From Bacillota bacterium (GTDB lineage Bacteria; Bacillota; Dehalobacteriia; UBA4068): a DNA stretch of 41,652 nt. The notes under the pieces are model-generated. The model saw nothing but the letters and a program-made list of their open reading frames with translations, was not told where the DNA came from and searched no databases. The stretch lies in NCBI GenBank assembly GCA_030527285.1, contig JAUNBC010000013.1, positions 1 through 41,652 on the forward strand, read 5' to 3'. This document shows positions 10,714-28,253 of the stretch, piece after piece. Positions within the stretch are counted from its first letter, which is position 1. Each line of letters opens with the position of its first letter. The position numbers were made by a program, and so were the translations under genes.

Positions 10714-10733
10714 ACGCTAAGAGATGATCATTG

Positions 10734-11912: not shown

Positions 11913-13056
11913 CAAGGAGCAGCTTCGTTTCAGCTGGCAGCAGGACAAGCGCAGACAGCGAAAACGCCTGCTGCGGATGATCGCTCTTACCGTAGCGGTA
12001 TTCGTTTTATGCCTGTGCTTTCGCTATAACGCCTATTATTTCAGCGATAAATTTGTGCCGGTAGAGTATTTTCGCAGCTATGTTTTAGCGGCGCGGCTGC
12101 TGCTTTCCCGCTTGCTGGATACGGCGTTGTGGCATCAGCGGGAGGAGCTGATCGCCGCGCTGGACGGCGTGATCTATGCCGGAGCCTTGGCGCAGCTGCG
12201 GAATATGCTGGTGGCCTTCGTTTCCGGCGCGGCTTTAGCGACGGCCGGCGCGATCTTTCAGACCGCCTATCGTAACCCCATGGCTTCGCCAAATCTGATC
12301 GGCGCCTCCGCCGGCGTGGGTCTGGGGAACGTGGTGGTGGTGATGGTTTGCTCTACTGCGGCGTTGGAAAACGTCTATCTGCGCTATGAATACTGCTATG
12401 CGTTCACCGTTATCTGCGTTGGCCTGGTATTGCTTTTAGGACGACTGGCGGGGAGCAGAGATAGTAACTATTCAATTTTAGAAATGGTCATGGCCGGCTC
12501 CATCGTTTCGCAGGTGATTCGCGTTTTCACCATGTATTTTATGTATAACCTGCCGGATGAGGAATTAGTGCTGTACGAGGAGATCAGCTTCGGCGTATAT
12601 AACTCCACGGATAAGTACAGCATGATCGTCTTTTTTTCTATTATGGCCATGTCGCTGTTGCCGGTCATGCTGATGCGTTATCGCCTGAACGCATTGGGCA
12701 TGACGCGACTGGAGACCGCTGCTCTTGGCCTGGATACACGCCGTTTGCGGACGATAGCGCAGATCTGCGGCGTACTGATGTCAGCCTGCGCTATGATACA
12801 TTGCGGGGAGCGTATCGGTATGGTCTCCCTGGTCATTCCCTATATCATCCGCCAAAGGCTGGGGCTTGATTTTCGTTATCTGGCGTTATACAGCGCGCTG
12901 GCCGGAGGTGTTTTGCTGCTGCTGTGCCGGCTGATCACCAGTTTTGTGATGATCGCCGACGCTCCGTTGCCTATCTCCTTTGCCATCGAGCTGCTGTTGA
13001 CCCCGTTATTCATGTTTATCCTCGCCACATACAGGAGGAATTCCGATGCGGATTGA
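11902..13056 (+). CDS. FecCD-family ABC transporter permease (subunit 2)
   Basis: 384 residues. GTG start with AAGGGAGG at 11885-11892, nine bases upstream and inside the preceding gene. A basic N-terminus is followed by about nine helices. Family motifs are VSGAALATAGAIFQTAYRNPMASPNLIGASAGVGLGN (about residues 108-144), AALGLDTRRLR for ATPase coupling, and IGMVSLVIPYIIR near the end. It should form a heterodimeric channel with subunit 1. It is diverged from subunit 1, so it is not a recent duplication. It overlaps the ATPase gene by 11 bases. Confidence 0.85.
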   Translation: MQLSKEQLRFSWQQDKRRQRKRLLRMIALTVAVFVLCLCFRYNAYYFSDKFVPVEYFRSYVLAARLLLSRLLDTALWHQREELIAALDGVIYAGALAQLRNMLVAFVSGAALATAGAIFQTAYRNPMASPNLIGASAGVGLGNVVVVMVCSTAALENVYLRYEYCYAFTVICVGLVLLLGRLAGSRDSNYSILEMVMAGSIVSQVIRVFTMYFMYNLPDEELVLYEEISFGVYNSTDKYSMIVFFSIMAMSLLPVMLMRYRLNALGMTRLETAALGLDTRRLRTIAQICGVLMSACAMIHCGERIGMVSLVIPYIIRQRLGLDFRYLALYSALAGGVLLLLCRLITSFVMIADAPLPISFAIELLLTPLFMFILATYRRNSDAD

Positions 13057-13867
13057 GCTGAATAATCTCAGCTGCGGCTACGACCGCCAAAAACCGATCG
13101 TTTTCGGCGTAGATATGACGCTTAACAGCGGCGACGTTTGCTGTATGCTTGGCCCCAACGGCGTTGGTAAAACCACGCTGTTCAAAACTGTTATCAATCT
13201 GCTGCCTCCCTTGAGCGGACAGGTGAGCATCGACGGCCAGAACATCCGCCGCTGGAATCCGCAGCAGGTCTCGCGCTACCTGGCTTATGTGGCGCAGGCG
13301 CACGCGCCGGTCTTTCCCTATCTGGTCAAAGAGGTGGCGATGATGGGGCGGCTGGGGCAGATCAACAGCCTGCGGCAGCCCAGCCGCGACGATCACGATA
13401 TCGTAGAGCAGGCTTTGGAGGACGTCGGGCTGCGGCACTTGCGGGATGCGCCTTATTCGCAGATATCAGGCGGCGAGCGGCAGCTGCTGATGATCGCGCG
13501 AGCTCTTTGCCAGCAACCGCAGCTGCTAATGCTGGACGAGCCGACGGCTAATCTGGATTACGGCAATATGCTGTTGGTCATGAAGACCTTGCGGCGCCTG
13601 GCAGACAAGGGTATGTGTATCATTTTTACTACCCATATGCCGGATCAGGCTTTTATGTGCGAGGCAAAAACGATCATGCTGCGGCGGGGGCAGGCGGCGC
13701 TCTTTGGCAACGCCGCTCAAGTCATCACCAGCCGCAATCTTTACGAAGCTTATCAGGCGGAAATCCAAATATTAGAGATCATCAGCGCGGACGGCATCCC
13801 ACTCAAAGTCATTGTGCCGCGGCTGCGCGAGGAACGGAGAGAAAACAATAGTGGAAAAGATATTTGA
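13046..13867 (+). CDS. FecE/BtuD-type ABC transporter ATPase
   Basis: 273 residues, usual for the family. AGGAGG is 8 bases upstream of the ATG. Walker A GPNGVGKTT is at residues 36-44, Q-loop VAQAHAP near 90, signature ISGGERQLLMIARAL near 135, Walker B LLMLDEPTANLD near 155, and switch TTHMPDQAF near 190. All active residues are intact. It powers the two FecCD permeases directly upstream. Its stop overlaps the start of the MoxR gene, so the importer and the MoxR/DUF58 module are translationally linked. Confidence 0.92.
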   Translation: MRIELNNLSCGYDRQKPIVFGVDMTLNSGDVCCMLGPNGVGKTTLFKTVINLLPPLSGQVSIDGQNIRRWNPQQVSRYLAYVAQAHAPVFPYLVKEVAMMGRLGQINSLRQPSRDDHDIVEQALEDVGLRHLRDAPYSQISGGERQLLMIARALCQQPQLLMLDEPTANLDYGNMLLVMKTLRRLADKGMCIIFTTHMPDQAFMCEAKTIMLRRGQAALFGNAAQVITSRNLYEAYQAEIQILEIISADGIPLKVIVPRLREERRENNSGKDI

Positions 13868-14852
13868 GCTTGAGCGAACTGACCTTGATTACGCAGCGCT
13901 GACGGCCGAGGAAGCCGCATGGGCCGGCGAGGCGGTCGCGGGCATTACCGGCAATATCAATACCGTCATCAAGGGCAAGCACAGCCAAGTGGAGCTGATC
14001 GTCATGTGTCTGCTGGCCGAGGGTCATGTTTTGATCGAGGACATTCCCGGCGTCGGCAAAACCAGCCTGGTATCGGCTTTGGCAAAAACGGTAGATTGCG
14101 AATATAAGCGTATCCAGTTTACGCCGGACGTTATGCCCTCCGATGTGACAGGCTTTTCCGTATACAATCAAAAAACCGGTGAATTTGAGTTTCGTCCCGG
14201 CGCCGCCATGAGCAATATCGTTTTGGCGGATGAGATCAACCGCGCCTCCGCTAAGACCCAATCCGCCATGCTGGAGATCATGGAGGAGCGTCAGGTCACG
14301 GCGGACGGGCATACATACAAGATGGAGCGGCCCTTTATGGTACTGGCCACGCAAAATCCCATAGATTCTCTGGGCACCTACAAATTGCCGGAAGCGCAGA
14401 TCGACCGTTTCATGATCAAGCTGTCGCTGGGTTATCCGGAATTTGAGGATGAGCTGCAAGTGGTGCTGTCCGGCAAGAAAGCCAAAGCCGAAATCGGGCG
14501 GGCTGTGAACGTCCGGCAAATCAACACGCTGATCGACCTGTGCGGTCGGGTATACGTAGACCGGCAGGTGGCCGCTTACATTGTGCAAATCGTCGAGGCT
14601 ACCCGCAGCCATGCCGAGATCAAGCTGGGCGCATCGCCGCGCGGCAGCATCGCCCTGTATGGGCTGGCTCGCGCCTACGCCCTCTCGCGGGGGAGGAATT
14701 ATGTGCTGCCGGACGACGTTAAGCTGCTGGCTCCTTATGTTTTGGCGCATCGGCTGATCCTGACTCACAGCGCGCAAACCGAAAAGCGGCAGCCACAGGC
14801 TATAATCAAAGATATTATCAGTCAGGTGGTCGTGCCCACAGGTCAGGTTTAA
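13851..14852 (+). CDS. MoxR-family AAA+ ATPase
   Basis: 333 residues from a GTG start at 13851, with GGAGAG ten bases upstream, overlapping the ATPase gene by 17 bases. Walker A GVGKTS is near residues 66-71, Walker B LADEINRAS near 124-132, sensor ATQNPID near 165, and the arginine-finger region EAQIDRFM near 185. These are standard MoxR features and the length is normal. MoxR proteins act as chaperone-like ATPases, often with a partner carrying a DUF58 or VWA domain, to insert metals or mature complexes. The DUF58 gene follows 4 bases later. Physical coupling to a FecCD importer suggests that it acts on the same substrate or on a protein that uses it (inference). Confidence 0.92.
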   Translation: MEKIFELERTDLDYAALTAEEAAWAGEAVAGITGNINTVIKGKHSQVELIVMCLLAEGHVLIEDIPGVGKTSLVSALAKTVDCEYKRIQFTPDVMPSDVTGFSVYNQKTGEFEFRPGAAMSNIVLADEINRASAKTQSAMLEIMEERQVTADGHTYKMERPFMVLATQNPIDSLGTYKLPEAQIDRFMIKLSLGYPEFEDELQVVLSGKKAKAEIGRAVNVRQINTLIDLCGRVYVDRQVAAYIVQIVEATRSHAEIKLGASPRGSIALYGLARAYALSRGRNYVLPDDVKLLAPYVLAHRLILTHSAQTEKRQPQAIIKDIISQVVVPTGQV

Positions 14853-14856
14853 GATA

Positions 14857-16122
14857 ATGGACGCGCGCAAACAGAGAACAATATATTTTCCCATAGTTAT
14901 CCCCTGCTGCATCGCGGCGCTGATGGTGACCGCGCTGCCTGCCGTGTTCATGAACGGCGTCAGCGGTTATGTACCGGCGTTATTCCTGACCATGCTGCTG
15001 CTGCTTTCCTTTGTCAGCCTGCTGCTGCTGCGGCGGGCGATCACGGTAGAGGCGGATCATGCGGACGTGTACTGCGTTCGCGGCGAAAGCGTGGAGATCG
15101 GCCTGCGGCTGCATAACCGGTCACGGTTTTTTTGTCCCAAAGCCGCGGCGTTTGTGACTATTTCTGATCTGTTTGGCGGGAACGATGCGCTGCGGCAGGT
15201 ACGCTTTACCGTTTCTGGGCGGGGTGAGGTTAAATTCCGCTTTGAATTAGAAATGCCGCATCTGGGCTGTTACCGCGTGGGCGTCGAGCGCATTGAGCTA
15301 TACGATGCTTTTGGCGTGTTCCGGCTGAGCCTGCCGGCTTTTGGCTGCTGCACCGCAACAGTTACCCCGCGCATCCGCCCCATCCTGGAGCTGACTGCCG
15401 TCGATAACGCAACGGTGGAGGCTGCCAGCGAGACCAGGCTTTCCGTTGTCGGCGGCACGGATTATACCGGCGTGCGGCCCTACGCGCTGGGCGACCCGAT
15501 GAAGCAGATACATTGGAAGCTCTCCGCCCACTCCCATGAATATGTGACAAAGATACAAGAGAGCAACCGGCAACAGGAATACGTTGTGATACTGGACTTT
15601 GCCGCCGCTGCCGACCTAAATCCGCAGCAGCTGATGGAGCTGAACGATTGCCTGATCGAAACCGCCCTCTCGCTGGTCGAGGAGATATACCTGCGTGGCG
15701 AGAGCTATACGCTGCTGTATATGGATCGCGGAGGGCAGCTTTGCCGCGCCGTACCGGCGGGAACGGATAGCTATGCCGAGCTGATGTCCTCCTTTGCCAT
15801 GATCGCTCCGCAATCCGCGATCGACGGAGCGCAGCTGCTGCAGCAGGAAGCGGCCATGCAAAATCGCGCCGGAACGGTGCTGGCCGTCACCTGCAAAGCC
15901 TCCGCAGAACTAACGCAGCAGTTAGTGAGTATTAAAAATCAACGCCGTACCGCCGAGCTGTATTTCGTCATACCGGCGGATTGGAGTCGCCGGCAGAGAG
16001 AAACTGCGGCGCTGCCGCTCTTACCGCTGAGCGATGCGGACGTATCTTACTATTTTGTTTCAACGGCGGAAAACCGCGTGGGCTTAAACGATGTGGGGAA
16101 TGGGCATGGCCGGTTATCTTAA
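14857..16122 (+). CDS. DUF58 domain protein, membrane-anchored MoxR partner
   Basis: 421 residues. Two N-terminal helices (about residues 15-65, ending in LLLLSFVSLLLLRR) precede a beta-rich region and then the DUF58 core with RPYALGDPMKQIHWKLSA (about 206-223), followed by a vWA-like fold. Length and layout are typical. It starts 4 bases after the moxR stop, and MoxR-DUF58 pairs are one of the most common gene couples in bacteria. The core would face the cytoplasm to meet MoxR. The 3' end overlaps the next gene by about 32 bases if that gene starts at 16091. Confidence 0.9.
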   Translation: MDARKQRTIYFPIVIPCCIAALMVTALPAVFMNGVSGYVPALFLTMLLLLSFVSLLLLRRAITVEADHADVYCVRGESVEIGLRLHNRSRFFCPKAAAFVTISDLFGGNDALRQVRFTVSGRGEVKFRFELEMPHLGCYRVGVERIELYDAFGVFRLSLPAFGCCTATVTPRIRPILELTAVDNATVEAASETRLSVVGGTDYTGVRPYALGDPMKQIHWKLSAHSHEYVTKIQESNRQQEYVVILDFAAAADLNPQQLMELNDCLIETALSLVEEIYLRGESYTLLYMDRGGQLCRAVPAGTDSYAELMSSFAMIAPQSAIDGAQLLQQEAAMQNRAGTVLAVTCKASAELTQQLVSIKNQRRTAELYFVIPADWSRRQRETAALPLLPLSDADVSYYFVSTAENRVGLNDVGNGHGRLS

Positions 16123-17419
16123 AAAACATGGCGCAGAGACGGCGCTTTATACCGTTATGACCTGGTGCATGACGCTGACCTTATGCTCGGGATGTGTCCT
16201 GGAGGATCAGTTTTCCTCCCGAGCGGGGGTTACGTTGGGCTTTTCCCTGCTGCTCCAGCTTGTTGTGGCGCTGCTTACCGCCGGCAGGCGGCGGCGGCAG
16301 GTCAGCGCAGTCATGGCCTTATTGCTGCTGATCGCCTGCGTCGTCTTTTTTCGCATCCGCGAGCCGCTTATCAGCGATACGGACAACAGCCTGCTGCTGT
16401 ACTTTATTTTTCTGACCGCCGCTGGTCTGATCGTGTTTATGCTGGGGCAAAGCCGCCCCGGAGCCTGTATTCTGTTTTTGTCGGGCAATCTGATCTGCGC
16501 GGGCGCACAGTTTTTACAGTATCCGGCGCCGCTGTGGACGCAGCTGTTGTTTGACGCTGCCGCCCTGCTCCTGTTTTTGCTGCGCGTCTATCTTCATTCC
16601 GTGGCTCGTGCCGACGTTCCCGGAGGCGATATACCGCGCTATTTGCGGCAGACGCTGACGCTGTGCCTTATCGCAGCCGTTGCCGCCTGCGGTATCTACT
16701 ATGGCGCGGTGCGTCCTTTGTCGCCGCCGACCATGGAGCTGAAGCTGATCACTATCTTGCGCTCTATGGAGCTGCTGCAGGTGATGGGCGTAGCCAGCAC
16801 CCAGATCGTGTTCGATCCTGCGCTGGCCTCTGCGGAGCAGCCGCAGCAGCAGGATACGGCAGGTCTGGCCGGTGATGAGCGTTCCGAGACCTTGCTCGGC
16901 CAAAACCAACAGTCCGAGCGGTTAAACGGAGCCGGACAGCAGATACAGCAGCTGACTTCAAGGCTACAGGAACAATGGTCAGCCATCCGCTATGATGAGG
17001 AGAGGCGCTTTCCCTTGTGGCTGCTATTCTTGCCGCTGCTGCTCACGGCGGCTTGCCTGCTGCGAATATGGCGAAAAAAGCGCTGGCATGACTGGCTGCA
17101 AACCCTGCCGCGGGAAACAGCGGTGGTCAACTATTATCGGTTTTTCCTGCGCGATATTGCCCGCGCCGGCCTGCCCAAGCCGCCGGCCGTTTCCCTGCTG
17201 GAATACGTTACGCTCTATGACGACCGGCTGCGCCCCTTCGCTCCTGATGACGGCAGCTTCAGCCGAATGACCGCTATCTGCCAAAAGGTGATCTACGGCC
17301 GGCAGCCGGTCAGCGAGGATGAGTACGCCTGCTTTGAACGGTTTTATGCCGGATTCTATCGCGCGCTCCGCCGCGAGCTGGGCACGCTCAAATACTATCT
17401 GAGTCTGTTTCGCTATTAG
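16091..17419 (+). CDS. Multi-spanning membrane protein with DUF4129-like C-terminus, no transglutaminase core
   Basis: 442 residues if started at 16091. In-frame ATGs at 16100 and 16106 are alternatives, the last having GGGGA six bases before it. The first 210 residues contain about six helices. An extracytoplasmic stretch (about 215-300) is rich in Gln/Glu. A further helix near 305-325 (LWLLFLPLLLTAACLL) leads to a 110-residue cytoplasmic tail. There NYYRFFLRDIARAGLPKPPAVSLLEYV resembles the DUF4129 tail of TgpA-like proteins (motif at about 352-378). In many MoxR-DUF58 operons the third gene encodes such a protein with a transglutaminase-like Cys-His-Asp core. That core is missing here. It may be a scaffold for the MoxR/DUF58 pair. 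Confidence 0.6.
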   Translation: MWGMGMAGYLKKHGAETALYTVMTWCMTLTLCSGCVLEDQFSSRAGVTLGFSLLLQLVVALLTAGRRRRQVSAVMALLLLIACVVFFRIREPLISDTDNSLLLYFIFLTAAGLIVFMLGQSRPGACILFLSGNLICAGAQFLQYPAPLWTQLLFDAAALLLFLLRVYLHSVARADVPGGDIPRYLRQTLTLCLIAAVAACGIYYGAVRPLSPPTMELKLITILRSMELLQVMGVASTQIVFDPALASAEQPQQQDTAGLAGDERSETLLGQNQQSERLNGAGQQIQQLTSRLQEQWSAIRYDEERRFPLWLLFLPLLLTAACLLRIWRKKRWHDWLQTLPRETAVVNYYRFFLRDIARAGLPKPPAVSLLEYVTLYDDRLRPFAPDDGSFSRMTAICQKVIYGRQPVSEDEYACFERFYAGFYRALRRELGTLKYYLSLFRY

Positions 17420-17488
17420 TCTCAGGCGGCAGCTCACTTGCGTCAACAGCCGTAAGGCTTTGATAATAAACTAAAAGGAGAATAAAAC

Positions 17489-19357
17489 ATGAACACCAGC
17501 AAAAAGCTACTCGTAGTATTATTGGCGCTTGCGATGCTGCTGTCCTGCGCCGCCGTGACGGCGGCGGACGATATCAGCGCCAGTCAGGAGGCAACGCAGG
17601 TTTATACCTACGAAGCTCCGACCAGCCCCATGGTGGTGGACGATAATATTATCACCGCCACCGCTCACCGCGCGGCCAGCCCCTCTCTGGGAATGATGGG
17701 CGTTAACGCCGTATCCGGCTTTGGTATGATCAACGGCTCCGCGCCGTCGAATTATGCCGAGGCTATCCAGAAATCCGCCCTGGGCGTGTGGGGCAGCTCC
17801 ATCAACAGCAACCCCGACCCCTATTACTGGAACTATTTCTATAACTTCTACGCCGCAGAGAACAATCTGGCCATCGCTGAAGACGCGCTGTTAAATTCAG
17901 CCGTGGCTGCCAGCCCCATGCAGGCTGATAAAAATCTGGTGGCGGAATACGGCAACATCTCCGTCTCATTAGTGACCCGCCCGGATATCGTCGTTGGCTG
18001 CTCCACCGGTAACGGTACTGATACCGACGGCTATAACGATCAGCTGGCTACCATCAATTCTTTTGCCAAAGATTCCCCTTATTATCAGGAAGGCGATGAA
18101 AACTATGCCCCGAAGCTGGTCAGCTATCAGACCACCTACATCAAGCAGATGATCGAGTCCATGCACCGTCTGGCCGACGCTATCACCGAGGTCAAGAATG
18201 AGACCGGCAAGACCACCCGCTATGAGGATCCGCAGCAGATCGCCGATGATTACGAGAATTACGTTTACGGCATCGTCAGCTACGTGCATCAGCAGTTAAA
18301 CGCCAAGGGCCTGGATATGAAAACCGTGGCCGTGGTCACGGCTGTTAACGAAGACGGCACTTATACTCTGGCCGATTCCGTTTCTCGCAGCGCTACTTCG
18401 CTGGTACGCGCCTATGAATACACCATGTGCGTCAGCAAATCGTTGGTAGACGAGATCGACAGCACCACCGCCACGCTGGATCAGCTGTTGACCGCCGACG
18501 CCATCGTTACCATCAACAACAACAATATCACCCATACCCAAATGCTGGAATCCTTCGGCGACAAGGTCTATGATGGTATCCTCGTGGCCAGCTCTCCTGC
18601 CACGCTCTACGGCATGACCATGAACTCCGTAGAAAACGCCATGGGTTACGCCTATGTTATCGGCTCTATTTACAGCGACGTGATAGATATCGACCCGGTC
18701 GATCTCAGCGCCTATTTCTATCAGCATTTTCTGCATATCTCCGATTTGGACGCGATCGCCACCGTGGTCAAGACAAACTATGCCAGCGTTATCCTGCCTG
18801 ATGGCGTAAGCGCTACCTTGGCGGCGGATTACAGCGACGCTGCCGTTCAGTCCAAGATCGATAGCGGACTGGAGTATTTCGCGAACAATCCGGCTGAATT
18901 CAACGCTTCCGCCTATCTCCTTATCGGCATGATCGATAAAGTAGACCATACCTGCGTGGCCACCTCGCAGAATTTGACGGTAAACGGCCAAGCCGTATCT
19001 ACCGAGATATACAATATCGACGGCAACAATTATTTTAAGCTGCGCGACGTTGCGCATATGCTCAACAACACCGGCTCGCAATTCTCCGTTGCCTATGACG
19101 AAGCCGCGCGCAGCATCACCGTCAAGACCGGCGAGGCTTATGTTGCGGTCGGCGGCGAAATGGCGGCCGGTAGGGACGCTTCCTCGACGCTGGTTGAAAG
19201 CAGTCAATCGCTGATCATCAACGATACTGCGGCGTCGCTCACCGCCTTCAACATCGGCGGAAACAACTTCTTCAAGCTGCGTGATCTTGGCACGGCGTTG
19301 AACTTTGAGGTAGGCTATGACGCGGCGACCCGCACCATGCTGGTGACCAGCAAATAG
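17489..19357 (+). CDS. Secreted FecB-like domain protein with two C-terminal stalk (copper amine oxidase N-like) repeats
   Basis: 622 residues, AAAAGGAG upstream. The signal region ends either after TAA (signal peptidase I) or at LLSC (possible lipobox, Cys20). Residues about 40-485 are not plainly a known family. They contain a long helix PQQIADDYENYVYGIVSYVHQQL followed by a strand TVAVV, and end with AYFYQHFLHISDLDAI (helix at about 249-271). The same order occurs in the FecB-type protein at 19433 (AANAYIAWLDGIV..., then FYRQFFGLALTDAEL). This suggests a diverged class III binding protein. Residues about 490-622 hold two stalk repeats with YNIDGNNYFKLRDVAHML and FNIGGNNFFKLRDLGTAL, which usually tether or display domains at the cell surface. 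It likely delivers ligand to the FecCD importer or holds it at the wall. Confidence 0.6.
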   Translation: MNTSKKLLVVLLALAMLLSCAAVTAADDISASQEATQVYTYEAPTSPMVVDDNIITATAHRAASPSLGMMGVNAVSGFGMINGSAPSNYAEAIQKSALGVWGSSINSNPDPYYWNYFYNFYAAENNLAIAEDALLNSAVAASPMQADKNLVAEYGNISVSLVTRPDIVVGCSTGNGTDTDGYNDQLATINSFAKDSPYYQEGDENYAPKLVSYQTTYIKQMIESMHRLADAITEVKNETGKTTRYEDPQQIADDYENYVYGIVSYVHQQLNAKGLDMKTVAVVTAVNEDGTYTLADSVSRSATSLVRAYEYTMCVSKSLVDEIDSTTATLDQLLTADAIVTINNNNITHTQMLESFGDKVYDGILVASSPATLYGMTMNSVENAMGYAYVIGSIYSDVIDIDPVDLSAYFYQHFLHISDLDAIATVVKTNYASVILPDGVSATLAADYSDAAVQSKIDSGLEYFANNPAEFNASAYLLIGMIDKVDHTCVATSQNLTVNGQAVSTEIYNIDGNNYFKLRDVAHMLNNTGSQFSVAYDEAARSITVKTGEAYVAVGGEMAAGRDASSTLVESSQSLIINDTAASLTAFNIGGNNFFKLRDLGTALNFEVGYDAATRTMLVTSK

Positions 19358-19432: not shown

Positions 19433-21088
19433 GTGAAAAAATACAAGCATCGGACGCGACTAATAGCCATAGTTCTATCAATGCTGCTGCTTTGCTCGCT
19501 GTTGAGCGGCTGTCGGGAAAGTCCCGTTTTGCGTCAGGTGATTTACGAAGCCTCCGCGCCGGAAGTGGATGAAAACGAAACTATGCTCGATTCGCAGGAA
19601 TCAGGGCTGGCGAACGAGGATTTCGACGAGCAAGAGGATGAAGACGCGGAAACTCCCCGTGACAGCGAGACCACTCAGGGGCTGACCGGAGAGGATAATT
19701 CGGCGGAGCAATCGATGGAGGAAGAGTACAGCGCCACCGGGGAAAACGACTGGCAGGCGGATAACGCTCCCACGTCCGCGCCGGAGCAAACAGCCGATGC
19801 GGAAGGCGGAGCGCAGCCGGCGGAGCAAGCGGCGGCAGATACGGCGGCGCCCGTGGCCGGCGGCAACAGCGCAAAGCAGATCGTGGACGCTGCCGGACGT
19901 ACCGTGGAGCTGCCGGAAAACGTGGGCTCGGCCGCGGCGGTGGGCTGGGCGGCGCAAGCCGTCAGTATGCTCAGCGGCGGCGGCTTGCTGGCGGCGGCGG
20001 ATGAGGAGTTTCTCTCCGCGTCTCTGGCCGCGTCTGCCTTTGACCTCAGCGCGGTCAGCAGTTCCTGGTCGGGCGACGGCAGCAGCTATATTTCCGACGA
20101 AGCTTTTGCCCAGCTATTGAGCAAAAAGCCCGGCGTATGCTTTGAGATCAGCGGTCAACGCACCTTCAGCGACGCTCAGGTGACGCAGCTAACGGCAGCC
20201 GGGATACCTTACGTCGTGCTGCCTTCGGTCACTTCTTTGGCTAATCTCAAGCAAGCGGTCAGTTTGATCGCGGCTGTTTTAGCGCAGGATACGCCGGACG
20301 ACCCGATAACCGCCGCCGCCAACGCCTATATCGCCTGGCTGGATGGGATCGTGCGGGAGGTAGCGGGCAAAACTGACGCGCAAGAGCTGACCAGTCTTTA
20401 TCTTGCCGATTGGGACGATAACGCCGCCTATACGCTCAACTACACCAAGGGCGCTATTGAAGCTCAGGGCAGCGGTATGGCCGTGGCCTGGTCGCCGCTA
20501 AAAAGCCAGATCGTTAGCGATTGCATGGCAGCGGCTAATGTGGTCAATGAGGCGACCCGCATTCGCAGCACGCATCGGGAATCCGAGGGGCTATACGTCT
20601 CACCGATGTTTCATCAGTTTGATCCTGCGGTTAGTGGAACGAAGGGCGTTTATTATTCCGGCTCCGGCGAATACGGCGCGGCCTTTGACCTGTTCGTTTC
20701 CCGCATGATCAGCAATACGGTCTATTATCAGCTGGGCAGCGAAGCCTTCCCGGCTCTGATCGTCGCGGATGAGAGCATCAAGGCGGCGGTGGAGGAAAAC
20801 TGGTTTTGGCAGTATCATCCGACGGATAATAACGGTTATATCACCATCAACGGCGAGAGCTTTTACTGCGGCGTGGTGGGCGATTACGAGATATACGTCA
20901 ATCCGCGCGGTATGTGCGATTGGACGGAGGGCAGTCTGGAATCGCCGCTGGAGGCGGTCTGGCTCGCCTATAAATTCCATAATGCTTATACGCTGGCGGA
21001 GGTAAAACAAATAGCCGCCGACTTTTACCGGCAGTTCTTCGGTCTTGCTCTGACTGACGCTGAGCTGCGGGAAATATTTGGCGAATAA
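19433..21088 (+). CDS. FecB-type ABC substrate-binding lipoprotein
   Basis: 551 residues from a GTG start. Lipoprotein signal with LLSGC (Cys27). Residues about 30-145 are a long acidic, Glu/Asp/Ala/Gln-rich linker of low complexity. The binding-protein part begins KQIVDAAGRTVELPENV (about 147-163), the usual start of the FecB/BtuF family (PF01497-like). YVVLPSVTSLANLKQAV and a long connecting helix (AYIAWLDGIVREV) follow. The end ADFYRQFFGLALTDAELREIF is a common closing helix in this family. It is longer than usual (300-350), mainly through the linker. Together with the two FecCD permeases and the ATPase 6 kb upstream it completes an importer; the substrate is undetermined. Confidence 0.8.
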   Translation: MKKYKHRTRLIAIVLSMLLLCSLLSGCRESPVLRQVIYEASAPEVDENETMLDSQESGLANEDFDEQEDEDAETPRDSETTQGLTGEDNSAEQSMEEEYSATGENDWQADNAPTSAPEQTADAEGGAQPAEQAAADTAAPVAGGNSAKQIVDAAGRTVELPENVGSAAAVGWAAQAVSMLSGGGLLAAADEEFLSASLAASAFDLSAVSSSWSGDGSSYISDEAFAQLLSKKPGVCFEISGQRTFSDAQVTQLTAAGIPYVVLPSVTSLANLKQAVSLIAAVLAQDTPDDPITAAANAYIAWLDGIVREVAGKTDAQELTSLYLADWDDNAAYTLNYTKGAIEAQGSGMAVAWSPLKSQIVSDCMAAANVVNEATRIRSTHRESEGLYVSPMFHQFDPAVSGTKGVYYSGSGEYGAAFDLFVSRMISNTVYYQLGSEAFPALIVADESIKAAVEENWFWQYHPTDNNGYITINGESFYCGVVGDYEIYVNPRGMCDWTEGSLESPLEAVWLAYKFHNAYTLAEVKQIAADFYRQFFGLALTDAELREIFGE

Positions 21089-21115
21089 GCAGCTATACAG
21101 AGAAACGGAGGAAAC

Positions 21116-22759
21116 ATGGAAACAATACGTATATTTTCCGCCGGCGTTGCGGGAAAGCTGGCCGAGGACGCGGCCAGACGGCTTGAGGCAAAGGATGATA
21201 GCTATAAATGCGAGGTAGTATGGGGCGGCTCTACCGCCGGCGTGCAGCGCCTGCTGTCCGGCGAGGATTTCGACGTGATGATCTTAGCTGATCACGCCAA
21301 TATTGACCAGATGATGATGCCGGACTATGCCGACGGCTATTTTATCTGGGGCGGCAACGAGATGGTCGTCATGGGGGAGGATATCACGGCGGAAAACTGG
21401 CAGGAGCGACTGTTAGATCCGACCAGCGAGCTGCGTCACGCCAACCCGTATAACGATCCCGGCGGCTATCGCGCCGTAATGGCCTTGCAGCTGGCTGATC
21501 GGGTAAGCATGGGGCTTAGCGAAAAGCTGCTGCGCCATCCGAATTATCATGGGCTGGAGCGGCGGCAGTACGAAAACGCCGCCCATCCTCCCTTTACCGC
21601 TGAGCCGGGGGTATATCGGATCGGCTACCGCAGTATGCCGGTGATGCAGGATAAGCCCTTTGCGCCTTTGCCGGCGGTGATGAATCTGTCTGTGCCGGAG
21701 CTGGAGGAGGTCTATAACACGGCTACTTTTCAGGTTGACGGCGGCGAAACGGTGCGGGGCTCGGTCATCCGGCATGCCATAGTCATCCCTAAAACAGCGC
21801 CAAACCCGTCCGGCGCGGCAGCCTTTGCCGAGGTCTTTCTGGCTAACCGCTTTATGCGCTTTGGTTTTACCCCGATCCAGAAAGCGGTAGGCAGCTGGAC
21901 GATCAAGCCGCCGAATATGTGGGATGAGGAAGCCTTTAGCTACAGTTTGATGACGTTACTGGAAGCCGAGGGCACGGAAAAGCAGCTGGATTGTCTGCCG
22001 CTCGCCCCCGACGACATAGTGCTGGATTGCGGCAGCGGGCCGGGACGGATCGGCGCATGTGCGGCGCGGCGGGTGAAAAAAGTTATCTGCTTGGATTCCT
22101 CCGAACAAATGTTGGCCGAATGCCGCAAAAATTGTGCGGCGGCGGGCGTGACCAACGTGGAATTTTTGCTGGCAGACTGGCAGAGCGAGGACGTGGAAAA
22201 GCTGCTGCCGCCGGTAGATGTTATCATACAGTCGCGCGGCGGCGGCGGTCCCAGCACTCTGGACAAGCTGCGGCGGGTCGCCCGGCGATTCGCGGCGACG
22301 ATCATGTGGTCGGAGGGCGCGGCCAATCTGCCGGAATCGAGGCAAAAGCTGTTTGTTGATTGCTATTCCAAAGAAGCGCAGGAAAAATATCCGGAGCTGC
22401 GTCCCTTCAAGCGGTCGGCCGGCGGGCCGCCCGGCGGAGGCGACGGCAGGCTATTTGGCGGCCTTGGCCCCGTGTCATTGGCCGATAAGCTGCCCATGGG
22501 CGGACCGCGGTTGCTGGCCGCCTTAGAAGAGGCGGGTATCGAATATCATGTCAGTACGGTTACGGAGGGCTGGAGCAAAAACTTTCCCAGCAAGCAGGCT
22601 GCCTATGACTGGCTTATCCGCATGGCTAAACGTCCGGAGCTGGTGGATATGGCCCAGTTCCAGCGTAACGTTGACAGCTTCCTGACGGAAACAGCGACTG
22701 GCTGGCGCTTCCACCTGCCCAGCTCCTCCGACGTGGTCTGGTTCCCGACCCGCCGATAA
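21116..22759 (+). CDS. Fusion of tungstate/molybdate-binding (WtpA/ModA-like) domain and class I SAM methyltransferase
   Basis: 547 residues, GGAGG 5-9 bases before the ATG, 27 bases after the FecB-type gene. Residues about 4-262 resemble extracellular molybdate/tungstate-binding proteins: IRIFSAGVAGKL, FDVMILADHANIDQMMMPDYADGYFIWGGNEMV, NPYNDPGGYRAVMALQLAD (at about 110-128), then RIGYRSMPV and AIVIPKTAPNPSGAAAFAEVFL. There is no signal peptide or lipobox, so this half seems cytoplasmic. Residues about 290-545 are a class I methyltransferase with motif I VLDCGSGPGRIG (302-313), acidic CLDSSEQML and the later LLADW. The single uninterrupted frame makes this a real fusion rather than two genes. 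Likely roles are sensing or delivering an oxyanion, or methylating a Mo/W-type cofactor or chelator. Function unknown. Confidence 0.75.
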   Translation: METIRIFSAGVAGKLAEDAARRLEAKDDSYKCEVVWGGSTAGVQRLLSGEDFDVMILADHANIDQMMMPDYADGYFIWGGNEMVVMGEDITAENWQERLLDPTSELRHANPYNDPGGYRAVMALQLADRVSMGLSEKLLRHPNYHGLERRQYENAAHPPFTAEPGVYRIGYRSMPVMQDKPFAPLPAVMNLSVPELEEVYNTATFQVDGGETVRGSVIRHAIVIPKTAPNPSGAAAFAEVFLANRFMRFGFTPIQKAVGSWTIKPPNMWDEEAFSYSLMTLLEAEGTEKQLDCLPLAPDDIVLDCGSGPGRIGACAARRVKKVICLDSSEQMLAECRKNCAAAGVTNVEFLLADWQSEDVEKLLPPVDVIIQSRGGGGPSTLDKLRRVARRFAATIMWSEGAANLPESRQKLFVDCYSKEAQEKYPELRPFKRSAGGPPGGGDGRLFGGLGPVSLADKLPMGGPRLLAALEEAGIEYHVSTVTEGWSKNFPSKQAAYDWLIRMAKRPELVDMAQFQRNVDSFLTETATGWRFHLPSSSDVVWFPTRR

Positions 22760-22972: not shown

Positions 22973-23038
22973 CCCCGCGCCGCAAAGCGCGGACGGCGGC
23001 GCGGACGCTTCATTGCTGTTGCGCGGGGTTTTGTGTTG
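22973..23038 (+). promoter_or_regulatory. Possible attenuator-like leader of the SLH/PstS gene
   Basis: CCCCGCGC (22973-22980) can pair with GCGCGGGG (23021-23028), which is followed by TTTTGTGTT and then directly by the ribosome site. Alternatively GCGCCGC (22977-22983) pairs with GCGGCGC (22996-23002). The two pairings share bases and exclude each other, as in attenuators. The rest of 22851-22972 is GC-rich spacer with no recognised gene or riboswitch core. Confidence 0.35.
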
Positions 23039-23053
23039 AAAGGAGATCGCTTT

Positions 23054-24802
23054 ATGAAAAAACTATTGTGCATCCTCGCCTTATGTCTGAGCTGCTGGCT
23101 GGGCTTCGCTACCGCCGCGCTGGCGGACGCCGGCGGCGAGGAGTACGTCACCGTATCCTGGGCTTACACGGAGGACGTCAACCTGTTCACCTGGCGGGAG
23201 CAGTTAGCCTTGCAGGCGCGCTATGCCGACGATAAAACGCCGATACCGCTGAACGCCTATTACGACGGCTATATGTTCGCCACTATCCCGGCGGCCAACG
23301 CCGAGCGGCCTCTGGAAGCCTATATGGCGGAGGCGCTCGTCTTTATTGACGCGGACGAGCAGTATTATGAATTCTTCGTGCTGGAGGAGCTGTCCCGCAC
23401 CGGCATCATCCGCGGCAACGCCAATGGCGAAGCGCTCCCCTTTGATACCATATCCCGGGCGGAAGCGGTGACGCTGATCGTGCGTATGCTGGGTCTGGAT
23501 ACGCTGGAGGCCGCCGCGCCCAGCGGCTTTGCCGACGTGCCCGCCGGCGCTTGGTATGCGGAGACCGTGGCCATCGCCGAGGATAACGGCGTGATCAGCT
23601 CCGACGAGCTGTTCAATCCCCAGCGTCAGGTGAGCCGCGAGGAATTCACCACCATGCTGGCTCGCGCCATGGAGCGAACCGGCTTGCAGACGATGGAAAA
23701 ATGGGCCGGACAAACCGTAGCGGCGGAGGAAGTGAACGCCGCCTGCAATATCGTAGACGGGGCGGATATCTCCGACTGGGCGCGTGCCGCCTATATGCTG
23801 CAAGGCACTCGCGTCATCACCACCGGCTTGCAGACGCTGGAGCTGGCTGCGGATAAGGCTCCCATTAGCCAGTATTACGCCGTGCCCCAGCAGGCGGCCA
23901 CGCGCTATGAATGCGCGCTGGTGCTGCGGCGGGCGCTGGATGATATGCAGGTCTATCCCTCCCGGCTCGCGATACAATACGGCTTTGACCAGGCCATGCC
24001 CGTTATCGACGGTTCCACCTCCACCTATCCCTTTACCGAGGCGGTGTACGGCGCGCTGTTCAGCAACGGCTACCGCCATCCGGACAAGCCCGCCAGTCAC
24101 AGCAAGAGCCACGCCTCCTATGAGCGGCTGATCGCAGGCGAGGTGGATATGCTGTTCGCCTCCGTTTACCCGGCCAGCGATATTTTAGCTTTAGCGCAAG
24201 AAAAAGGCGTGGAGCTGGAACTGATCCCCATCGCCTATGACGCCATGGTCTTTTTCACCAATACCGAAAATCCCGCCTCCGGCCTGACCAGCCAGCAAAT
24301 CACCGACATCTATGTGGATAACGCTTATGACAACTGGCAGCAGCTCGGCGGCTCGGACGCGCAGCTGATCCCCTATGCCCGCAATCTGGACAGCGGCTCC
24401 CAGGCGCAGATGGAGCGGCACTTCCTGGGCGGCGAAACCATCAACGCCACCATTCAGCAGGAGACTACCTCTATCACCATGTCCAATATCCTTACCGACG
24501 TCATGGGCGCGTACTCCGCCGATCCTCCGGCCTATGCCCTGGGTTACAGCATCTACTATTACTATCATAACATGGATGTGTTTTACGACACCCTGAGCGA
24601 GCTGAAGCTGCTGGCCATCGACGGCGTGTACCCCACGGATAAGACCATTGCCGACGGCAGCTATCCTCTCGCCAACAACACCTATATCGTGCTGCGCGCC
24701 GACACGCCCGAGGATAGTCCCGCCAGGCAGATGGTCAAGTTCATGCTTTCCCCCGCCGGACAGTCCTGCGTGGAGCAAGCTGGCTACGGGCCGCTGCAGT
24801 AA
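23054..24802 (+). CDS. Secreted SLH-domain protein with PstS-like phosphate-binding domain
   Basis: 582 residues. AAAGGAG is eight bases before the ATG at 23054; a frame extension upstream is not supported. A signal peptide (1-25, ending ALA) comes first. Two SLH-type segments follow: one around residues 110-170 (LEELSRTGIIRGNANG, SRAEAVTLIVRML) and one around 170-220 (FADVPAGAWYAETVAIAEDNGVIS, then SREEFTTMLAR). From about 305 it is a type II periplasmic-binding fold of the PstS family: MPVIDGSTSTYPFTEAVY, SHASYERLIAGEVDML, DAMVFFTNTENPASGLTSQQITDIY, and a C-terminal KFMLSPAGQSCVEQAGYGPL (segments cited in part). A wall-attached phosphate- or oxyanion-binding protein is the best reading. No Pst permease or ATPase is nearby. 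Confidence 0.78.
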   Translation: MKKLLCILALCLSCWLGFATAALADAGGEEYVTVSWAYTEDVNLFTWREQLALQARYADDKTPIPLNAYYDGYMFATIPAANAERPLEAYMAEALVFIDADEQYYEFFVLEELSRTGIIRGNANGEALPFDTISRAEAVTLIVRMLGLDTLEAAAPSGFADVPAGAWYAETVAIAEDNGVISSDELFNPQRQVSREEFTTMLARAMERTGLQTMEKWAGQTVAAEEVNAACNIVDGADISDWARAAYMLQGTRVITTGLQTLELAADKAPISQYYAVPQQAATRYECALVLRRALDDMQVYPSRLAIQYGFDQAMPVIDGSTSTYPFTEAVYGALFSNGYRHPDKPASHSKSHASYERLIAGEVDMLFASVYPASDILALAQEKGVELELIPIAYDAMVFFTNTENPASGLTSQQITDIYVDNAYDNWQQLGGSDAQLIPYARNLDSGSQAQMERHFLGGETINATIQQETTSITMSNILTDVMGAYSADPPAYALGYSIYYYYHNMDVFYDTLSELKLLAIDGVYPTDKTIADGSYPLANNTYIVLRADTPEDSPARQMVKFMLSPAGQSCVEQAGYGPLQ

Positions 24803-25020: not shown

Positions 25021-26265
25021 CTAATCCTCAGCGCCGCCCTCGCCGCCTCGACCGCGCAGGCTGCGCTTTATTGTACCGCGCGTCATAAAGCCCGTACCCG
25101 CCTCGACCGCAAACGGCAGATCGGGGTAGCTGCCGGCCAGCAGCCGCCGCGCCGTATCCAGGTCGCCGGCTACGCTCAGGCGCAGCGTATCGCCTTGCCA
25201 AACCGCCGCGTAATCGAGTATGCGGTCATCAGCCAGCAATATATCGTCCAGCGCATAGACGGACAGCGGCTGCCGCAGCTCGTCGATGCGTCCCGCTACC
25301 TGCAAGCGCGGCAATACGCTGCCGCAGCCGCAGGGCGCATCGAGCAGCCGTCCCCAATCGCCGCTGCGATAGCGCAATAGCGGCGTCGCCTGCCGCGTCA
25401 GCGTCGTGAGCACGATCTCGCCCCATTGTCCCGCCGCCAGCGTTTGCCCACCGTCCGGCTCGACGATCTCCGTATACAGCGCGTCATGGCGCAGATGCAT
25501 ACCGCCGGACAGTCCGTCCGCTGCGCCGTTCGCCGCCGCCGTCTGCATACGGCTGCCGTAAGGGCATTCCACCGCATAGCCAAGGCCGCTCTCGGTCAGG
25601 CCGTAATGCTCAAATACCGCGCAGCCCCATAGTCGGGAGATGGCCTGACGCAGCACCGCTCCCACCCTGTCGGCGGATAGCAGCACATTATGCGGCGGAT
25701 ATTGCGGCGCGGTCAGCGCCAGACGGCGTATTTGCGCCGGTATGCCGACGATGGTATGCGGCCTGAATTCGCCGAGACAGCGCGCCGCGTCCTGATAGTC
25801 CGCTATCGGCCCGAACAGCAGCGGCCGCGCGCCCAGCTGCTCCAAGCCCTGCGCCAACAGCCGCCCGACGCCGTCCTCGGCTGCGCCCGGCATACAGATC
25901 AGCACCCGCTGCCCTGCCGCGCACAGATAGCGCATACCGGCGGCGAAGAAATCTACGGTCTGCTTAATATCGCCGTCGCTGAAAGCCAGCCGTTTCCAGC
26001 GTCCGCCGGAGCCGGAGCTGCGCAGGCTGACCACGCGGCGCACCTGCGACGCGCGCAGGCACAGCAGCTCGCCGCCGCGTTCGAGCAGGTCGGCGGCGGT
26101 AGTGAAGGGCAGCTCCGCTATCTCGTCCAGCTCGCGCAAGCTTCGCCCGCGCAAGCCGGCGTAAAAACGGCTGCGCTCGGCCGCCCACTGCAGCTGACGG
26201 TTCAAGGCCGCCAACTGATATTCGCGTAATTGCCCGAGGCTCCACGTTTGGTCGAATACGCTCAT
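25021..26265 (-). CDS. PaaK-like AMP-dependent CoA ligase, DVU_1553-like
   Basis: 414 residues when started at the ATG at 26265, which overlaps the stop of the upstream methyltransferase gene (ATGA). A longer upstream frame would run through that gene and is not supported. It is an adenylate-forming enzyme of the phenylacetate-CoA ligase type. It has a phosphate-binding loop SSGSGGRWKRLAFS near residue 83, EHYGLTESGLGYAVEC near 228, a hinge region RYRSGDWGRLLDAPCGCGS near 318, and a C-terminal Lys in RGTIKRSL near 400. The Cys-containing segment CGCGSVLPRL is common in PaaK relatives. Genes of this kind travel with a methyltransferase and a radical SAM protein in Desulfovibrio (DVU_1553 to DVU_1556) and in other anaerobes, as here. 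The acyl substrate is unknown. Confidence 0.75.
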   Translation of the reverse strand: MSVFDQTWSLGQLREYQLAALNRQLQWAAERSRFYAGLRGRSLRELDEIAELPFTTAADLLERGGELLCLRASQVRRVVSLRSSGSGGRWKRLAFSDGDIKQTVDFFAAGMRYLCAAGQRVLICMPGAAEDGVGRLLAQGLEQLGARPLLFGPIADYQDAARCLGEFRPHTIVGIPAQIRRLALTAPQYPPHNVLLSADRVGAVLRQAISRLWGCAVFEHYGLTESGLGYAVECPYGSRMQTAAANGAADGLSGGMHLRHDALYTEIVEPDGGQTLAAGQWGEIVLTTLTRQATPLLRYRSGDWGRLLDAPCGCGSVLPRLQVAGRIDELRQPLSVYALDDILLADDRILDYAAVWQGDTLRLSVAGDLDTARRLLAGSYPDLPFAVEAGTGFMTRGTIKRSLRGRGGEGGAED

Positions 26266-26891
26266 TTTTGCAGCACCCATAGCCCATAACCGGCGCGCGC
26301 CTGCTTCAGCGCGGCGCGGCAGCTCTCGTCCAGACAGTCGCAAGCCGTACCGTCGAAGATCATCTGCCCGAGCAAGGCCTGCAGCGCGGCGGTATAGTCG
26401 GTGAACCGACGCTCGCTGAAGCCGCTCGCCGTAAAAAAGCCGCAAAGCGTCCGCGCCGCGTATATATGGCGCAGCAGGCGGTTATCGCGCAATTCCGCTT
26501 CCCCGGCGCGGCCGTACAGATCGCATAGCAGCAGCACGCCGCCCGCGCGCAGCACGCGCCAGGCCTCCTGCGCCGCCCGCTTGGGCTCGTCCAGCAGCGA
26601 GAATACGCATTGCAGCAGCAGCGCGTCAAAGCTGCCGTCGGCGAAGGGCAGCTGCTCCGCCCGACCTACGACAGCGTTACAGATAGCCGCGTATTCCGCG
26701 TCCGCCTCCACTCCGCTCAGCCGGTACTCGCTATGCGCGGCCAGCCAGCGCAGCGTCTCGCCGCGGCCGCAGCCCACGTCCAGCACGGCGGCCTGCGGCG
26801 GACAATAGGCGGCCAGCACGTGACCGATCTCCGCCGCTTCCAGCGGATTCAGCCGCCGCAGATCTTGTCCGTAATTGTGGTCAAAGCTCAT
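26262..26891 (-). CDS. Class I SAM-dependent methyltransferase, DVU_1556/TrsM-like
   Basis: 209 residues. The ATG follows the TAA of the radical SAM gene directly, and its ribosome site CGGAGGA lies in the end of that gene. Motif I VLDVGCGRGETLRWL is near residues 36-50, acidic GVEADAEYA near 59, motif DGSFDALLLQCVFSLL near 86, and a post-motif helix AWRVLRAGGVLLL near 109. All SAM-binding elements are intact. A C-terminal CDCLDESC sits near residue 183, and the protein closes with GYGLWVLQK. Position and C-terminal Cys cluster fit the methyltransferase of the Trs/DVU_1556 group. The family name is recalled, not searched. Confidence 0.75.
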   Translation of the reverse strand: MSFDHNYGQDLRRLNPLEAAEIGHVLAAYCPPQAAVLDVGCGRGETLRWLAAHSEYRLSGVEADAEYAAICNAVVGRAEQLPFADGSFDALLLQCVFSLLDEPKRAAQEAWRVLRAGGVLLLCDLYGRAGEAELRDNRLLRHIYAARTLCGFFTASGFSERRFTDYTAALQALLGQMIFDGTACDCLDESCRAALKQARAGYGLWVLQK

Positions 26892-28253
26892 TTATCCTCC
26901 GATGGGAGTCAGATAGCGGCAGCAAAAGGGTATCAGCCGCCCGTTATGGTACACGTGCAGCGAGCAGCGGCGCAATCGCTCGATATCCAGATTCATCGCG
27001 TCCTGAAAGGCCATAGCGGTGATGGTGAAGCCATGACTGCTGGCGCGCTGGGCAAAGCCCTCCAGGCTGGCGACGTCCAACTCCTGCTGCGCCGCCTGCG
27101 GCCCGCAGCAGCAGCCCTCCGGCTCCTTCCGCTGCCAATGCCGTCCCACGTATTCGCGGTTTTGCTCGGCTGTGCTCGGCGATTGCTGCGCATCGCTGCG
27201 CCGCGATAGCGGCAGCAGCGAGCCGTCGGGCAGCACCACGAATGAGGCGTGGCAGCCGCATAACGGATGATCGCAGCGCGAGGGCAGTATATGCTCCGCC
27301 GCCACGCCGGCCTGCTCGCTGATCGCCAGCAGCAGCTCGTCCAAGGTATAACGCTGGTCATCGGCGGGCTGCTCGGGATAGCGGCCAAAGTAGCTGACCG
27401 GCTGGAAATGCACGCCGCGCACCGCCGGCGACCTTGATACGGCGAGGCGGATGATCTCGCCGATCTGCTGGTCGTTGACCCCGCGCACCACCGTGGGCAC
27501 CAGGGTCACGCCGATATTGTATTTATCGCATAGCTCGATGGCGCGCAGCTTTTGTTTGAGCAGCGGCGCATGGCGTAAATACTCATATACGCCGTTGTCC
27601 ACGCCGTCGAATTGCATAAAGACGAACGACAGTCCCGCCTCCGCCAGCGCGCGCACATAGGCCTCGTCGGCGGCCAGACGCAGGCCGTTGCTGTTCAGCT
27701 GCACGTATTTGTAACCGCGCTGCTTGGCATAGGCCACCAATTGCGGCAGGTCGTCGCGCAGCGCCGGCTCGCCGCCGGATAGCTGCAACAACGGCTGGCC
27801 GGCCTTGGCCAGTATATCATCGACCGCCGCTTTCAGCTCATCTAAAGACGGCTCGGGCGTCGTGCCGTCGGCAAAGCAGAAGCGGCAATGCAGATCGCAG
27901 CGGCGCGTTACCTCCAGCAGCACGCAGCAGCTGCCCTGCTGATGCTCGGGGCAAATGCCGCAGTTATCGGGGCAGCCCAGATTTTCCGCCGCGCCGAGCT
28001 CCGGCAGGCAGCCGCGCCATTGTTCGATATCCGCCAGCTCCCGCCATACCACGGTGCGGAACGTACCATGCTCGGCGCAGGTCTTCTCCATATATATCAG
28101 GCCGCCTTCACGCTTGAGCACGGCCTCGACCTGCGTCAAACATACCGGACATACCGAGCGCGTATGCCGCGGCCGCTCCGTTGTGGCCGTGGCCGCCGGC
28201 GCTGCCGCCGCGCTGCGCTGCTGATTGCAGCAGCAATTATCCTGCTCGCCCAT
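26892..28253 (-). CDS. trsS: Radical SAM protein of the TrsS type
   Basis: 453 residues. AGGAGGG lies 4 bases before the ATG. After a Cys/Ala-rich N-terminus come CPVC (near residue 35) and CPDNCGICPEH (near 94), resembling metal-binding sites. The radical SAM cluster motif CDLHCRFC (C-x3-C-x2-C) is near 118, with LSGGEPALRDDLP downstream for SAM binding. The C-terminal half has further Cys groups: CDHPLCGCH near 320, CCCG near 380, and FCCRY at the end, suggesting auxiliary Fe-S clusters. This matches what I recall of TrsS, a radical SAM protein that is a selenoprotein in some species. Here all positions are Cys and there is no in-frame TGA. Promoter at 28342-28370. It heads an operon with the methyltransferase and ligase; the product is unknown. 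Confidence 0.72.
   Translation of the reverse strand: MGEQDNCCCNQQRSAAAAPAATATTERPRHTRSVCPVCLTQVEAVLKREGGLIYMEKTCAEHGTFRTVVWRELADIEQWRGCLPELGAAENLGCPDNCGICPEHQQGSCCVLLEVTRRCDLHCRFCFADGTTPEPSLDELKAAVDDILAKAGQPLLQLSGGEPALRDDLPQLVAYAKQRGYKYVQLNSNGLRLAADEAYVRALAEAGLSFVFMQFDGVDNGVYEYLRHAPLLKQKLRAIELCDKYNIGVTLVPTVVRGVNDQQIGEIIRLAVSRSPAVRGVHFQPVSYFGRYPEQPADDQRYTLDELLLAISEQAGVAAEHILPSRCDHPLCGCHASFVVLPDGSLLPLSRRSDAQQSPSTAEQNREYVGRHWQRKEPEGCCCGPQAAQQELDVASLEGFAQRASSHGFTITAMAFQDAMNLDIERLRRCSLHVYHNGRLIPFCCRYLTPIGG

Follow-up and report, generated by a model that had tools for sequence, protein, structure and literature searches.

In WtpA, tungstate is bound by two carboxylates, Asp160 and Glu218, and the aspartate sets selectivity (PMC10221389). 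MolA is the molybdate/tungstate-binding protein of a FecCD-type importer, MolBC-A (PMC4031551), and archaeal MoeA1 carries a cytosolic binding domain of the molybdenum/tungsten type fused to an enzyme, for which metal capture and channelling have been proposed (PMC11733289). For an Escherichia coli cluster that includes a FecCD-type importer, the prrA-modD-yc73-fepC region, a role in iron uptake has been proposed (PMC1890555, PMC12928451). A literature search for a link between methyltransferases, FecCD importers and molybdate returned nothing directly relevant. Here we describe a gene that joins a WtpA/ModA-type binding domain to a class I S-adenosylmethionine (SAM)-dependent methyltransferase, at positions 21116–22759 (forward strand, stop codon included) of a 41,652-nt stretch, hereafter the window. 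It corresponds to one entire contig of a metagenome-assembled genome (1.63 Mb, 82% complete) that is related to, among others, Peptococcaceae bacterium UBA4068 and a Bacillota genome from goat rectum. We conclude that this gene is a real, well-formed fusion of two known kinds of part, and the identity of both halves is well supported.

The initial annotation had described an uninterrupted 547-residue frame made of two halves with approximate borders, a binding-protein fold in the first half, no signal peptide and FecCD genes nearby, all of which our analysis bore out. The 547 codons run without a stop or frameshift behind a Shine-Dalgarno sequence (GGAGG, 21107–21111, forward strand) located 4 nt 5′ of the ATG. 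Both halves exceed their curated Pfam cut-offs, with SBP_bac_11 at residues 4–141 (3.7e-11) and Methyltransf_25 at residues 302–371 (8.8e-11); these were the only kinds of Pfam match, and no MoeA domain was found in the fusion. Each half aligns end to end with stand-alone relatives, those of the first ending in VGNW(K) or VGNWLSQI and those of the second beginning with KPP..W-D, which places the domain border at residues 262/263, and the GC3 pattern is alike on both sides of it. The in-frame start codons near the junction are limited to residues 247, 268, 278 and 279, all lacking a Shine-Dalgarno sequence, and the methyltransferase homology (the KPP..W-D segment of L054, the closest relative of this half) begins upstream of M268, the only plausible internal ATG. 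The junction thus offers no usable start. Neither a split gene nor a frameshift is a likely source of the joined frame, and a consensus error at the junction is likewise unlikely in the one assembly of this species. The stop codon of the upstream gene lies in frame nine codons before the ATG, and the best 15-residue hydropathy within the first 45 residues is 0.79, with no hydrophobic stretch, compared to 2.5–3.2 in three secreted binding proteins of the window. This leaves no room for a signal peptide, and the fusion protein is, judging from the absence of export signals, cytosolic.

Several lines of evidence link the N-terminal domain (residues 1–262; 21116–21901, forward strand) to WtpA. The best-scoring NCBIfam models for this half are WtpA models (TIGR03730 and NF003196; 86–92 bits, far under the cut-offs of 243 and 355; 4e-26 for the half alone), with the fusion scoring 86–89 bits against TIGR03730 and thus missing its 243-bit cut-off. 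The nearest solved structures are archaeal WtpA/ModA proteins (3k6u, 9e-20 for the half alone), and a Foldseek search with an AlphaFold model placed archaeal WtpA/ModA structures in all of its first ten ranks; with a mean pLDDT of 51, this low-confidence model is too poor to show the pocket or how the two domains are arranged. The initial annotation had further read tungstate or molybdate binding from sequence motifs, and this was retained only in part. Asp114, within the NPYNDPGGYR motif (residues 110–119; 21443–21472, forward strand), aligns with the selectivity-setting aspartate of WtpA and is kept, but the ligand cannot be read from the motifs: the segment carrying Glu218 in WtpA is ~29 residues shorter in the fusion and has no counterpart there (both correspondences being by alignment, not structure), and the serine of the WtpA AGS motif is replaced by a valine. 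With one of two metal carboxylates and the N-terminal serine missing, tungstate binding by this domain is doubtful, i.e., possible but not to be assumed.

The fusion gene closes an operon whose genes all lie on the forward strand and are no more than 75 nt apart. This operon encodes two FecCD-family permeases (10731–11912 and 11902–13056; PF01032, 1.8e-51 and 2.3e-42, respectively), a FecE-type ABC ATPase (13046–13867), four other genes (13812–19357, gaps of −56 to 75 nt) and a FecB/MolA-type substrate-binding lipoprotein (19433–21088) located 27 nt upstream of the fusion. The lipoprotein alone had no Pfam match, yet a profile built from the binding proteins found beside stand-alone methyltransferases (see below) matches it at 58 bits, and it includes their conserved C-terminal segment. 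The four intervening genes encode a MoxR ATPase, a DUF58 protein, a DUF4129 protein and a protein with a weak match to a copper-amine-oxidase N-domain, and the first three (13812–17419), which lie within the importer operon, overlap the FecE gene or directly adjoin it. There is no regulator gene next to the fusion. The gene directly downstream (23033–24802, 273 nt 3′ of the fusion gene) encodes a PstS-like binding protein of the phosphate type that carries S-layer homology domains. On the opposite strand, ~2.3 kb from the fusion end, positions 25021–28253 hold part of a DVU_1551–1557 gene set, including a TrsS radical SAM protein (513 bits, cut-off 490), a DVU_1553-type AMP-dependent CoA ligase (346 bits, cut-off 300) and a DVU_1556-type methyltransferase (143 bits, just under the cut-off of 155).

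The same combination of importer and methyltransferase recurs elsewhere. While the class I methyltransferase assignment of the second half (residues 263–547; 21902–22756, forward strand; SAM-binding motif I, IVLDCGSGPGRIG, residues 301–313, 22016–22054) stands, this is not the generic enzyme first suggested: in our tree it falls within a FecCD-linked clade (support 97/100) as the sister of L054 (96/91), on a long branch. Members of this family are stand-alone genes of ~280 residues. Five loci (L055–L058 and L060) place them in an operon alongside a FecB-like lipoprotein, FecCD and FecE. One of the five (L060/L005) is from a genome of the window genome's own family, and further FecCD-linked loci were found in Paracoccus (L026/L144), Proteus (L145), E. 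coli (L191) and at L146/L147. The methyltransferase of Paracoccus ferrooxidans sits between a TonB siderophore receptor and FecCD, and in both Proteus mirabilis (L145, 4179–10729) and E. coli O157:H7 (L191, 5844–12273) the order is binding protein, FecCD, FecE, methyltransferase, ModD and TonB receptor, with the methyltransferase directly preceding modD (TIGR01334, 398 bits in Proteus). This arrangement corresponds to the prrA-modD-yc73-fepC region named above. A match to the cluster's permease DNA was obtained for 1937 of the 5426 complete E. coli genomes, a count of the permease and not of the whole cluster. No family methyltransferase was near ModD at any of 16 ModD loci from the phylum, so that the link to ModD rests on two enterobacterial lineages. 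Binding proteins beside these methyltransferases match MolA at 1.3e-41 (profile including the window lipoprotein); only two uncharacterised structures ranked higher, and iron and heme binders came below it. L054 is two genes away from a molybdopterin-dependent aldehyde oxidoreductase (1174 bits). A more distant methyltransferase branch (L149–L155) is found beside Opp/Dpp-type importers with SBP_bac_5 binding proteins, as checked separately at L150 and L154. Within the family alignment, the second half of the window methyltransferase is diverged: the SR of the family motif ASRS is kept, while the GYN..F motif is gone, its GYN..FN.LY.MGI region being replaced by a Gly-rich insertion. Although SAM motif I and the acidic residue of strand 2 are kept in the fusion, as is the DPGGYR of the binding domain, this divergence means that methyltransferase activity is not assured.

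Based on this family membership, the handling of an imported metal chelate is more likely than the methylation of a molybdenum or tungsten cofactor, one of the roles initially proposed. Our preferred reading, which we hold tentatively, is that the fusion is a cytosolic bifunctional enzyme belonging to an ABC importer of the FecCD type (type II, for metal chelates), with a molybdenum or tungsten chelate as the probable substrate. The chelate-handling part of this reading derives from the FecCD operons in which the family occurs elsewhere, the position of the window methyltransferase inside that clade, and the presence of the same operon parts around it. The imported substrate, the ligand of the N-terminal domain and the methyl acceptor are what we infer. 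The importer would carry molybdenum, tungsten or another metal into the cell as a complex, and there the WtpA-like domain would bind the oxyanion or anionic chelate. The methyltransferase could then methylate the organic ligand with SAM as donor, e.g., at a metal-binding oxygen, nitrogen or sulfur. This might weaken the ligand's hold or flag it as spent, and the metal would thereby remain in the cell, near the reaction site. One chain would thereby do the job of a stand-alone methyltransferase and a free cytosolic binding protein in other species. The archaeal MoeA1 fusions are a published precedent for pairing such a cytosolic domain with an enzyme. A narrower version, in which the protein would serve as a one-protein cytosolic unloading station where methylation of a molybdenum or tungsten chelator triggers release and the tethered WtpA-like domain catches the oxyanion, appears distinctly doubtful. 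If true, it would make the stand-alone methyltransferases of FecCD operons, including the modD-adjacent one of E. coli, a general chelate-processing class.

The choice of metal draws on evidence in both directions. Molybdenum or tungsten is favored by the kinship of the first half to WtpA, the position of ModD beside the methyltransferase, the MolA-like binding proteins, the molybdenum enzyme encoded near L054, and the richness of the window genome in molybdenum enzymes. This genome encodes seven MoCoBD_1 genes (on C38, C31, C39, C18 and C20) and one AFOR gene (C32), with no match to the molybdopterin oxidoreductase family PF00384. It is disfavored by the 16 phylum ModD loci lacking the methyltransferase, by the incomplete WtpA ligands, and by separate oxyanion importers in the same genome, namely a ModA-type gene beside its permease (C4) and a TupA-type importer with a TTTS motif (C29), given which the fusion would not be needed for plain oxyanion uptake. 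Also counting against the preferred reading are its basis in a single metagenome-assembled genome, the uncharacterised state of the methyltransferase family, and the iron-uptake role proposed for the E. coli cluster. That proposal leads to a possible, if somewhat unlikely, alternative in which the FecCD system and methyltransferase handle an iron siderophore, heme or corrinoid, and the WtpA-like domain has drifted towards an organic anion such as the chelator instead of molybdate or tungstate. The siderophore receptor adjoining the Paracoccus methyltransferase, the incomplete ligand residues of the window domain, and the corrinoid methyltransferases CpaM and CbiT among the weak NCBIfam matches of the fusion are all consistent with this alternative. 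Conversely, ModD next to the methyltransferase in E. coli and Proteus, the resemblance of the adjacent binding proteins to MolA, and the fact that the two halves of the fusion each point independently to molybdenum or tungsten argue against it.

To place the N-terminal domain among its relatives, we considered the proteins matched by a profile of this half (A1), which were found in 28 of 398 genomes sampled across the phylum. Complete sequences were available for 27 relatives, not counting the proteins of the window and of G007; 16 of these are secreted and 11, ~270 residues long, have no signal peptide. The re-use of a binding domain inside the cell, as first proposed, is thus upheld as to its cytosolic location but not as something exceptional or unique, and the cytosolic WtpA-like domain is instead a recurrent class. 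Secreted and signal-less WtpA-like proteins form two sides of a branch in the tree (80/92 and 99/95), and the window domain groups with proteins from G007 and G012 in a third group (100/100), to both of which it is 43% identical. This third-group domain stands alone in G007, while in G012 it is preceded by an uncharacterised ~175-residue domain also found as two tandem single-domain genes; at this locus (L061/L067, 7035–9467), the ~175-residue domain thus occurs in three tandem genes, the third being fused to the WtpA-like domain. By eye, this N-terminal domain of G012 had looked CRP-like (cNMP), but Pfam gave no support for that reading even at E-values up to 10.

The 11 genomic neighborhoods read around signal-less genes (L130–L140) revealed a PadR regulator gene immediately beside the signal-less gene in all but one, and a TauE, chromate or MOT1 permease nearby in most. 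These PadR-linked proteins could represent a cytosolic oxyanion-sensing set, and by extension the fusion may be an allosteric sensor enzyme, in which the WtpA-like domain would sense cytosolic molybdate, tungstate or a similar oxyanion and switch the methyltransferase so that chelate processing follows metal status. The near-constant association of these relatives with PadR, their frequent proximity to oxyanion permeases, and the fusion of the G012 domain to an uncharacterised domain and not to a transporter are in line with sensing. We nevertheless consider this explanation unlikely for the window protein, since its domain belongs to a clade apart from the PadR-linked one and the fusion is without an adjoining regulator, with no PadR gene in the FecCD-fusion region.

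Beyond the window genome, the fusion was not detected in any other of the genomes analysed from its order (35 in all) or class (43 in all, i.e., 42 others), nor among the 398 genomes sampled across the phylum. A scan of ~85,000 species genomes at the contig level with the binding-domain alignment (A1), which depends on short conserved peptides and thus reaches close relatives only, recovered only G007 and G012, and a scan of viral contigs with P0001, A1 and A2 turned up a single weak methyltransferase match and nothing related to the full-length protein. The survey of the fusion beside FecCD genes suggested by the initial annotation therefore had a split outcome: methyltransferases beside FecCD are common, but the fusion is so far unique to one genome, itself metagenome-assembled. 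An accidental joining of two adjacent genes, now partly degenerate and with no joint function, would fit this single occurrence, as well as the branch of the window binding domain (1.38, longer than the 0.76 and 0.87 of its relatives in the same tree) and the divergence of the C-terminal part of the methyltransferase, with its Gly-rich insertion. The intact frame and strong ribosome-binding site, the retained motifs of both halves, and their similar GC3 pattern make this scenario quite improbable.

A detoxification enzyme in which the binding domain hands arsenite, selenite or tellurite to the methyltransferase for methylation is very improbable: an arsenite methyltransferase is the best-scoring NCBIfam methyltransferase model, but its 36–37 bits are far below the cut-off of 263, and the operon partners are importers, not exporters. 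ArsM-type chemistry requires conserved cysteines, and it was rejected on both this score (37 bits) and the lack of an invariant cysteine in the family alignment.

Taken together, these results tie a molybdenum/tungsten-type binding domain to a widespread and uncharacterised family of importer-linked methyltransferases extending from Bacillota to E. coli. If this link is functional, molybdenum or tungsten may be what is handled by the cluster of binding protein, FecCD, FecE, methyltransferase, ModD and TonB receptor, although this cluster, whose permease DNA has matches in about one third of complete E. coli genomes, is usually described as an iron-uptake locus. A concrete, testable substrate class would then be offered for the methyltransferase and ModD. 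The comparison also highlights the cytosolic WtpA-like proteins encoded next to PadR regulators, a class that has been overlooked.

Each known system shares part of this arrangement. The fusion domain has the fold of WtpA, its GGS and DPxGYR motifs and the selectivity aspartate, yet differs in lacking a signal peptide and the Glu218 segment, in having valine for the AGS serine, in scoring under the WtpA cut-off, and in being joined to a methyltransferase with no adjoining WtpBC. PadR-linked signal-less WtpA-like proteins of Bacillota (L103, L105, L109 and others) are likewise cytosolic and share the DPxGYR aspartate, but belong to another clade, stand alone, and often have oxyanion permeases nearby instead of FecCD. 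MolBC-A of Haemophilus influenzae (HI1470–1472) is a FecCD-type importer of molybdate and tungstate whose MolA is resembled by the binding proteins adjacent to the methyltransferases. FecCD-linked methyltransferases, such as those of the E. coli region and Paracoccus pFER3, share clade and operon type with the window methyltransferase, but are stand-alone, whereas the latter lacks ~20 N-terminal residues, contains the Gly-rich insertion and forms one chain with a binding domain. Finally, in the archaeal MoeA1-PBP proteins, the binding domain is C-terminal and its partner is MoeA, whereas in the window fusion the binding domain is N-terminal and its partner is a methyltransferase.
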